Assembly (NCBI GenBank): GCA_018710945.1 | Contig: DVIW01000017.1 | Location: 1-64,000, forward strand | Source: Candidatus Aphodovivens avistercoris | GTDB lineage: Bacteria > Actinomycetota > Coriobacteriia > Coriobacteriales > Eggerthellaceae | DNA: 64,000 bases | Direction of reading: 5' to 3' | In this document: piece after piece, positions 55,435-56,805 of the stretch | Layout of the letters: the number at the start of each line of letters is the position of its first letter | Numbering within the stretch: position 1 is the stretch's first letter | Notes under the pieces: model-generated | Seen by the model: the letters and a program-made list of their open reading frames with translations, nothing else | The model's database searches: none | Told to the model about the DNA's origin: nothing | Program-made: the position numbers and the translations under genes

Positions 55435-55463
55435 TTGCGCTCCCCCGGGCAATCGCGTAATAT
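55435..55463 (+). promoter_or_regulatory. tRNA-Ala promoter
   Basis: TTGCGC (55435-55440), 17-nt spacer, TAATAT (55458-55463). The -10 ends 31 nt before the tRNA 5' end. A good match for a stable-RNA promoter. Confidence 0.65.
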
Positions 55464-55494
55464 ATCCGTCGCTGCTTCGGTAGCAACCCGTTTC

Positions 55495-55570
55495 GGGGCA
55501 TTAGCTCAGCTGGGAGAGCGCATGGCTGGCAGCCATGAGGTCAGGGGTTCGATCCCCCTATGCTCCACCA
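55495..55570 (+). tRNA. tRNA-Ala (anticodon GGC)
   Basis: Acceptor GGGGCAT pairs with ATGCTCC; D-arm AGCTCAGCTGGGAGAGC; anticodon stem CATGG/CCATG around CTGGCAG gives anticodon GGC (reads GCC, the most used Ala codon here); T-arm AGGGGTTCGATCCCCCT. Discriminator A and CCA (55568-55570) are encoded. The 3' part from 55551 on, with the terminator after it, is repeated at 55725-55797. Confidence 0.96.
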
Positions 55571-55622
55571 TGAACGACACGGCCGTCAACCCTGGTTGGC
55601 GGCCGTTTTCGCTTTCCGCCTC
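55551..55622 (+). repeat. Direct repeat copy 1: tRNA-Ala 3' half plus terminator
   Basis: From the T-arm GATCCCCCTATGCTCC through the CCA, the following ATGAA, and a terminator hairpin ACGGCCG.../...CGGCCGT (55579-55606) with TTTT. The first 24 nt are identical to copy 2 at 55725-55748; the remaining ~48 nt differ at about eight places plus one indel. Confidence 0.85.
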
Positions 55623-55724
55623 AGGGGATCGAACCCGCGAGGGGCGAACAGCCCGGTGGGCTGTTCGCGACGGAGGGCCGCAAGGCCCAACGTCTCCAAG
55701 ACGCGACCGCAGGGAGCGGCTTAC
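55623..55724 (+). ncRNA. Hairpin-rich insert between tRNA-Ala repeat copies
   Basis: A 102-nt segment with compact foldable units. It begins with GGGGATCGAACCC (55624-55636), an exact reverse complement of the tRNA T-arm GGGTTCGATCCCC. Then an 11-bp stem GCGAACAGCCC/GGGCTGTTCGC (55644-55668), a GGGCC-GCAA-GGCCC hairpin with GNRA loop (55675-55688) and a CCGC/GCGG hairpin (55707-55719). No reading frame. It is labelled ncRNA only as a structural candidate; transcription and function are not shown. Could be a small non-autonomous element. Confidence 0.4.
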
Positions 55725-55797
55725 GATCCCCCTATGCTCCACCATGAATGGCACGCCCGTCAACCACCGGTTGGCGGGCGTTTTCGTTTTCCGCCTC
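55725..55797 (+). repeat. Direct repeat copy 2: tRNA-Ala 3' fragment plus terminator
   Basis: Repeats the tRNA-Ala 3' end without its 5' half, then a terminator hairpin ACGCCCG.../...CGGGCGT (55753-55781) with TTTT. Compared with copy 1 the stem has one G-C to C-G compensatory exchange, so pairing was selected while sequence drifted. Confidence 0.85.
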
Positions 55798-55893
55798 CCC
55801 GTCCGCCCTTCCCTGCGCGGGCTTTCCGCCGGCTTTGCCTATAATGGGGCTCGGAAACGCAAGCGCACCGCCGTCGCACCGCAAGGAGGGCCC

Positions 55894-56805
55894 ATGTTCG
55901 GAGAAAACCTCGACCGCATCGTCGCGGCCATCGAGAAGAACTACGAAGCTGACGAGATCTTCTTCACCAAACCCGGCCGTCGCTTCCCCAGCCGCGCCGC
56001 CGTGAAGAACGTGCTGAAGACCCTGCGCCGCGTGCTGTTCCCCGGCTACTTCGGCCCGGAGATGCTCTCGGGCGCCGCCAGCCCGGGCTACTTCATCGGC
56101 AGCACGCTCATCGAGGTGGAGCGCGAGCTGCGCGACCAGATCGTGCTGGCGCTCACCTACACCTCCGACGACCCCGACGCCTGCTGCCCGCCCGAGGACA
56201 TCCAGAAGCGCGCCGACGAGATCATGGCCGCCTTCTTCGAAGAGCTGCCCAACATCCAGCGCGTGCTGCTGACCGACGTGCAGGCGCTGTTCGACGGCGA
56301 CCCAGCCGCCGGCTCGAAGGAAGAGGTCATCTTCACCTACCCCGGCCTGTACGCCATCTACGTCTACCGCGTGGCGCATGTGCTGTTCGAGCAGAAGGTG
56401 CCCATCATCCCCCGCGTCATGACGGAGCTGGCGCACTCCGGCACGGGCATCGACATCGGCGCGGGCGCCACGATCGGCGAGTACTTCTTCATCGACCATG
56501 GCACCGGCGTGGTGATCGGCGAGACCACCGAGATCGGCGACCACGTGAAGATCTACCAGGGCGTCACCCTGGGCGCGCTGTCCACCCGCGGCGGCCAGCG
56601 CCTGGCCGGCGTGAAGCGCCACCCCACCATCGGCGACAACGTGACCATATACTCCAACGCCTCGGTCCTCGGCGGCGAGACCGTGGTGGGCGAGGGCTCG
56701 GTCATCGCCGGCTCCACCTTCGTCACCTTCAGCGTGCCGCCGCATTCGCGCGTGTCGGTGAAGGACCAGGAGATCACCGTCCGCCAGCCCGGCGAGCGCG
56801 ACTAG
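55894..56805 (+). CDS. cysE: Serine O-acetyltransferase
   Basis: 303 aa. Acetylates serine for cysteine synthesis. The N-terminal ~150 residues are the helical domain (LTDVQALFDGDPAAGSKEEVIFTYPGLYAIYVYRVAHVLFEQ; the conserved D-P-A-A and R-x-AH segments). The C-terminal left-handed beta-helix has hexapeptide repeats (GIDIGAGATIGEYFFIDHGTGVVIGE, HVKIYQGVTLGALS) with catalytic Asp-His in FIDHGTG. The longer N-terminus is of the plant/anaerobe type. AAGGAGGG sits 6 nt before ATG 55894. No cysK is beside it in this window. A terminator follows at 56835-56869. Confidence 0.94.
   Translation: MFGENLDRIVAAIEKNYEADEIFFTKPGRRFPSRAAVKNVLKTLRRVLFPGYFGPEMLSGAASPGYFIGSTLIEVERELRDQIVLALTYTSDDPDACCPPEDIQKRADEIMAAFFEELPNIQRVLLTDVQALFDGDPAAGSKEEVIFTYPGLYAIYVYRVAHVLFEQKVPIIPRVMTELAHSGTGIDIGAGATIGEYFFIDHGTGVVIGETTEIGDHVKIYQGVTLGALSTRGGQRLAGVKRHPTIGDNVTIYSNASVLGGETVVGEGSVIAGSTFVTFSVPPHSRVSVKDQEITVRQPGERD

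Follow-up and report, generated by a model that had tools for sequence, protein, structure and literature searches.

A structured non-coding element behind a tRNA-Ala gene, flanked by copies of that tRNA's 3' end, with relatives in other bacteria

The closest described counterpart of the element analyzed here is the RtT RNA of Escherichia coli (Rfam RF00391, rttR). In the K-12 strain, which served as our control region, units of ~178 bp lie behind tyrV, and the RF00391 model matches four times at about 133–138 bits. Besides three distal units, these matches include one upstream of tyrV (L252, 1864–1995, minus strand; 132.9 bits), which apparently lies in the spacer towards tyrT. At 59 nt after CCA, the E. 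coli units carry GGGGAAGGAT, the inverse complement of the 3' part of tRNA-Tyr, a length of match that 4 of 1000 shuffles reached. An RttR transcript is annotated, a role of rtT RNA in tRNA processing or the stringent response was proposed, and the tyrT repeats have until now been read as a local oddity or as regulatory RNA. To our knowledge, RtT is known in E. coli from a single tRNA family, and we know of no other repeats than those at tyrT that are framed by copies of their own tRNA's 3' end.

Genomic islands and phages integrated at tRNA genes offer a second point of comparison. Integrases that target tRNAs typically cross over within the tRNA and restore the tRNA gene. The partial tRNA copies that integration leaves behind are summarized in PMC9897764.

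The tRNA-Ala locus and its insert

The locus lies in a stretch of 64,000 nt (hereafter the window) from Candidatus Aphodovivens avistercoris (Eggerthellaceae; contig DVIW01000017.1 of assembly GCA_018710945.1), and all features described below are on the plus strand unless noted. The target gene, an intact tRNA-Ala(GGC) identified by ARAGORN (55495–55570; 64.1 bits to Rfam RF00005), is followed by a trailer (trailer 1, 55571–55623) with an intrinsic-terminator-like stem at about 55580–55605 and a T-run. A structured unit comes next, then a direct repeat of the tRNA 3' end that spans T-loop C56 through CCA (55724–55744) and begins at the breakpoint typical of the family (C56/T55, see below), and finally trailer 2 (55745–55797), a duplicate of trailer 1 with its own terminator-like stem at about 55754–55780 and 85% identity to trailer 1 over 40 nt. 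A first-pass annotation, made from the letters alone, had described this order of parts, and direct repeats bear it out: 55550–55591 recurs at 55724–55765 (42 nt) and 55594–55622 at 55769–55797 (29 nt), both at 93% identity and a spacing of 174–175 nt. The two blocks total 71 nt and define a repeat unit of 55550–55723 with a period of 174. The identical stretch that opens the repeats, previously given as 24 nt, is 25 nt long by reading (55550–55574 and 55724–55748), and a genome search also aligned 25 nt at 100%. Reading likewise confirmed the reported compensatory exchange between the terminator stems (CGGCCG..CGGCCG versus CGCCCG..CGGGCG), a single change of G-C to C-G.

The unit, as delimited by its match to our covariance model R1 (55624–55731; 98 bits, E = 1.2e-27, for a copy that itself belongs to the training set), opens with GGGGATCGAACCC (55624–55636). 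Over all 13 nt this is the exact inverse complement of the tRNA T-arm (55545–55557), as first noted from the letters, and when the 153-nt insert region was shuffled 1000 times, no such match arose; the same relation holds across the family. Helix P1, supported by model R1 and covariation, pairs GGGGATCG (55624–55631) with CGATCCCC (55724–55731). The fold further predicts P2 (55634–55643), a 3-bp stem with a GCGA loop of the GNRA type at 55637–55640; P3 (55644–55668), the 11-bp hairpin GCGAACAGCCC-GGT-GGGCTGTTCGC that is the hallmark of the family (arms 55644–55654 and 55658–55668); P4 (55669–55694), a hairpin with GGAG..CAAC flanks and a GCAA loop at 55680–55683; and a variable 3' hairpin segment of the core (55695–55723) that is poorly conserved among copies. 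The insert thus holds the 11-bp stem that had been claimed for it, and two GNRA hairpins where one had been noted. Its fold, at −55.2 kcal/mol (z = −4.2), was equaled by none of 200 shuffles.

Three open reading frames of the window span the tRNA and the insert (55506–55763 on the minus strand, 55560–55844 on the plus strand, and the N-terminal part of 55435–56805 on the plus strand; e.g., MVEHRGIEPLTSWLPAMRSPS). They look like the spurious reading frames typical of such loci.

A family of structured units at tRNA 3' ends

The insert belongs to a widespread family of structured non-coding units located at tRNA 3' ends, with a core of about 100 nt and a period of 150–200 bp. No Rfam 15 family scored above its gathering score in the insert, the tRNA being the sole match, and no published description of the family was found in a literature search that covered mainly freely accessible papers. 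The homologue and covariance-model search that the first-pass annotation had proposed returned multiple copies at other tRNAs with conserved stems. A second copy in the same genome, behind tRNA-Ala(TGC), is 95% identical over 130 nt and is also framed by two trailers. Model R1, built from an alignment (A2) of twelve copies from relatives, matched 83 of 138 genomes of the host's family and 53 of 298 genomes of its class, other families included; trained on Coriobacteriia, it undercounts other phyla. Among 87 tabulated matches, 75 have a same-strand tRNA upstream (Ala, Ser, Phe, Val, Met, Trp, Gly, or Pro), mostly with 51–55 nt between the tRNA and the first unit, and the orientation is constant among Coriobacteriia copies that have a tRNA. 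Among the remaining 12 are several at contig edges and a near-miss, L080, whose end is not a recognizable tRNA 3' end.

A wider scan for GAACC followed by the hairpin CAGYCCASTGGRCTG, with ARAGORN run on the matches, recovered the same layout in Oscillospiraceae, other Clostridia, and Atopobiaceae; in Burkholderiaceae and Geothrix it found relatives next to tRNA genes. The relatives in Clostridia, Burkholderiaceae, and Planctomycetota are looser ones. In Clostridia, the inverse T-arm, the hairpin, and the direct 3' end are unmistakable, and tandem units occur at Ala(CGC), Arg(CCG), and Pro(TGG). In one Planctomycetota genome, four tRNAs (Lys, two Ala, and Arg) have direct repeats of their 3' end of 154–199 nt, and the hairpin there, placed immediately ahead of the T-arm's GGTTC, is reversed with respect to the tRNA. 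Judging only from the hairpin and the layout, we take these copies to be probable relatives inserted the other way round, a reversal that would suit a DNA element. No copy was found in the phage or plasmid collections searched; IMG/VR gave 13 pattern matches, mostly unrelated, with two (L306 and L303) resembling copies of the Clostridia type.

The hairpin scan also returned matches in Brucella and Bifidobacterium, which were rejected as other repeats; no tRNA lies upstream of them in the stretch examined. Eight Bifidobacterium loci (L140, L149, L159, L164, L166, L171, L177, and L204) carry intergenic repeats that follow the pattern GAACCGTTAA..-CAGYCCAGTGGRCTG hairpin-..TAGGT with no adjoining tRNA in that stretch, and the frame CCGTTAAG..GTAGG is also present within the first units of L010 and L032. 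Brucella and Pseudochrobactrum loci (L134, L135, L138, L141, L146, L148, and others) share a recurrent GGGAACCGCCTTCGCGGGGAAATCAGTCCACTGGACTGATTTCTGATCCCGCTACGAT, a palindromic repeat that is apparently unrelated. In related genomes, at L014 and L021 (around 1501–1530), yet another intergenic repeat (CAGACAGTCCTG...GCGAACAGCCCACTGGGCTGTTCGC...CGTGCGGAACT) has the hairpin of the family but no tRNA.

The helices of the core are conserved by compensatory change. In an alignment of 91 distinct copies, fitted to model R1 and hence biased towards the modelled pairs, 95.1% of cells are paired and 27 of 28 pairs show double changes, a result reached by none of 500 shuffles, and sliding the partners by one column lowers pairing to about 50% (at most 51%). 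All modelled pairs of P4 show double changes. For P3, 97.9% of cells are paired across the 91 sequences, with double changes in 10 of 11 pairs, and this hairpin taken alone has many pair types at each position. The P2 loop is of the GNRA type in about 80 of the 91 copies, while P4 loops are mainly GNA; the GNRA loops could reflect selection at the RNA level. As a test of strand asymmetry, G-U pairs were counted against A-C mispairs in the core helices, and the excess expected of an RNA was small (35 versus 21). A unique locus, a lack of homologues or covariation, and an intact second tRNA-Ala in relatives, the outcomes that the first-pass annotation had set against its own reading, were each looked for and none was found.

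Ends taken from the neighboring tRNA

The right end of a unit is the 3' end of the upstream tRNA, continued by that tRNA's trailer. Among the 21 loci with repeats similar enough to place the start, the 5' breakpoint of the duplication falls at T-loop C56 in 12, at T55 in 5, and at most five bases off in 4. Over the 40 nt after CCA, the two trailers of one locus share a mean of 77% identity (median 83%, up to 100%), compared with 60% for trailers taken from different loci of one isoacceptor and 51% for shuffled sequences. Because trailers are more alike within a locus than between loci of the same isoacceptor, the duplication from C56 was made locally, although homogenization between the repeats could mimic this pattern. 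A terminator-like stem precedes most Coriobacteriia units, with about 10–20 nt from stem to unit. The correlation between the 3' breakpoint and the terminator T-run was not significant (n = 12), so we make no claim that the copied piece stops at the transcript end.

The left end, the inverse T-arm, also follows the neighboring tRNA. It differs from its own T-arm by 1.79 mismatches of 9, versus 3.46 for permuted tRNAs and a minimum of 2.86 in 10,000 permutations. The inner six or seven bases match nearly always, and the outermost two or three often mismatch. Truncation of the right end is frequent, and the left end fits its own tRNA even where the right copy is truncated. The clearest example is a genome with a Ser and an Ala copy whose cores are near-identical from GAACC to GTCGA, with ends and trailers specific to the respective tRNA.

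Presence varies between close relatives, and the tRNA itself is intact. At the orthologous site in a genus-mate, tRNA-Ala(GGC) and one terminator are followed by cysE with no unit between them. Both states occur within another genus, with arrays of three units at tRNA-Ser(GCT) or Ser(TGA) in two species and an empty tRNA-Ser(GCT) site in each of two others. Tandem multiplication has produced arrays of three near-identical units, and the repeat period is 161–183 in relatives. The core itself is mobile or recurrent, with near-identical cores on different tRNAs and across different genera; 16 of 62 copies have their nearest core at another locus of their own genome, versus 1.4 expected. Since core similarity tracks the genome only partly, many copies are old or vertically inherited, and no insertion was caught in the act among the loci compared. 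Many of the genomes are drafts or MAGs, whose assembly may have collapsed arrays or cut them short. In L088, a run of N adjoins the unit behind tRNA-Met (around 630–652, minus-strand reading), likely a sign of arrays breaking draft assemblies.

Together with the covariation and the multiple tRNA targets among hundreds of homologues, the empty sites favor one of the two alternatives left by the first-pass annotation, a mini-element that targets tRNA 3' ends. The other, a decayed tandem tRNA-Ala copy into which something was later inserted, would account for the repeated 3' half of the tRNA and can be given next to no credence: no copy has a 5' half, or indeed any tRNA sequence 5' of C56, different isotypes share the C56 breakpoint, and the empty orthologous site has a single tRNA. 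It was rejected as a general account on these last two grounds.

We consider it reasonably probable that the core moves or duplicates as a non-autonomous unit and adapts to its target. On insertion, the site would break at T-loop base C56 and the tRNA 3' end and trailer would be duplicated, so that tRNA function and termination are kept. The copied T-arm would form the terminal helix P1 and may offer the next site of insertion or recombination, and arrays would expand and contract as the direct repeats recombine. Neither of the two candidate mobility enzymes tested in ten carrier genomes, several of them incomplete drafts, could be linked to the element: a reverse transcriptase (RVT_1) was absent from all ten and a Y1 transposase (Y1_Tnp) from five. 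Both were rejected as the mobilizer, as their presence does not track the element. A trans-acting tyrosine recombinase is compatible with a breakpoint in the T-loop but would not account for target changes accompanied by newly copied trailers.

The main rival to a target-adapting element is a small RNA that benefits the host, comparable to RtT: read-through of terminator 1 would yield a transcript of the core plus the tRNA 3' end that is matured at CCA and acts in trans, and selection would keep P1, which would explain why the left end matches the tRNA. The strong compensatory evolution, the GNRA tetraloops on the tRNA-sense strand, the uniform orientation of those Coriobacteriia copies that have a tRNA, and the annotated RttR transcript of like anatomy in E. 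coli all suit this reading. We nevertheless regard it as rather unlikely, given the terminator-like stem ahead of most Coriobacteriia units, the sister genomes that lack copies at the same tRNA, the often truncated right ends beside left ends that still match the tRNA, the reversed core in Planctomycetota, and a G-U excess too small for a clear RNA-strand signal. A promoter of its own is also unlikely, because only about 10–20 nt separate the terminator-like stem from the unit.

Alternatively, the units could be relics of tyrosine-integrase activity, with a tiny circle whose attP equals the tRNA 3' end crossing over in the T-loop to leave attL (the intact tRNA) and attR (the 3'-end copy), and integrating in tandem. 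Integrases that target tRNAs typically cross over inside the tRNA gene and restore it, and direct repeats and tandem arrays would also follow. This origin seems improbable, as no single attP can fit the tRNAs for Ala, Ser, Phe, Val, Gly, and Pro, among others, the trailers duplicate the local trailer, there is no coding capacity, and an inverse T-arm that follows the tRNA would go unexplained. An origin in replication, requiring no enzyme of the element, is very improbable in our judgment: template switching at T-arm palindromes would create the inverse copy by quasi-palindrome correction, and slippage or gene conversion would spread the core between tRNA genes. The inverse and direct T-arm copies do lie within 70 nt, where such correction would perfect them, and neither enzyme tested (Y1 transposase, reverse transcriptase) correlates with the element; however, a near-identical core on unrelated tRNAs and the same C56 breakpoint are hard to obtain by slippage alone.

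Comparison with RtT and other known systems

Our data link an old E. coli curiosity, the tyrT repeats and their RtT RNA, to a large and apparently undescribed family in at least four phyla, so that the nature of tyrT-type repeats can be addressed by comparing hundreds of copies. Tentatively, and with somewhat less confidence than even, we suggest a bacteria-wide class of mobile elements whose gene-less core inserts at T-loop C56 of many isotypes and takes both ends from its target, so that insertion recreates the tRNA and the terminator along with the terminal helix of the element; this class would include the E. coli tyrT repeats. If the units are mobile, they would represent a mode of insertion that assembles both ends from the target and restores an essential gene every time; if they act as RNA, a tRNA-linked regulator would be far wider than thought. 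The family may also account for false reading frames and assembly breaks behind tRNA genes.

Other repeats and integrated elements share parts of this anatomy. As in the attL and attR sites of islands and phages integrated at tRNAs, the 3' part of the tRNA is duplicated, the tRNA is restored, and the break lies inside the tRNA gene; the combination of an intact tRNA and a direct repeat of its 3' end is that of a tyrosine-integrase att site. The window element differs from islands and phages in its size of 150–200 bp, its lack of genes, its locally duplicated trailer, and its inverse T-arm, and from integrase att sites in that the same core occurs at many isotypes with locally copied ends rather than with a fixed attP at one tRNA. 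REP/BIME-type repeats (linked to RAYT) and MITEs are likewise short, non-coding, structured repeats with several copies per genome, but the family described here is tied to tRNA 3' ends and its own ends copy the target, and the Y1 transposase was lacking in 5 of 10 carriers. Retroelements and retrons differ in that RVT_1 was present in 0 of 10 tested carriers.

The likeness to RtT goes furthest. Both consist of a tRNA, an inverse complement of its 3' end, a structured core, and a direct 3'-end copy to CCA, repeated in tandem behind the tRNA with a period of ~170–180 bp in RtT and 174 in the window, and the E. coli locus with the annotated RttR transcript has the anatomy of the window element. 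The core sequences differ, and E. coli is without a clear terminator between tRNA and unit. RF00391 had no match in the genome of Ca. Aphodovivens avistercoris, in the window, or in nine loci of the family, and model R1 did not match the E. coli units. As judged from sequence, the window element is built like RtT but is not a member of RF00391.
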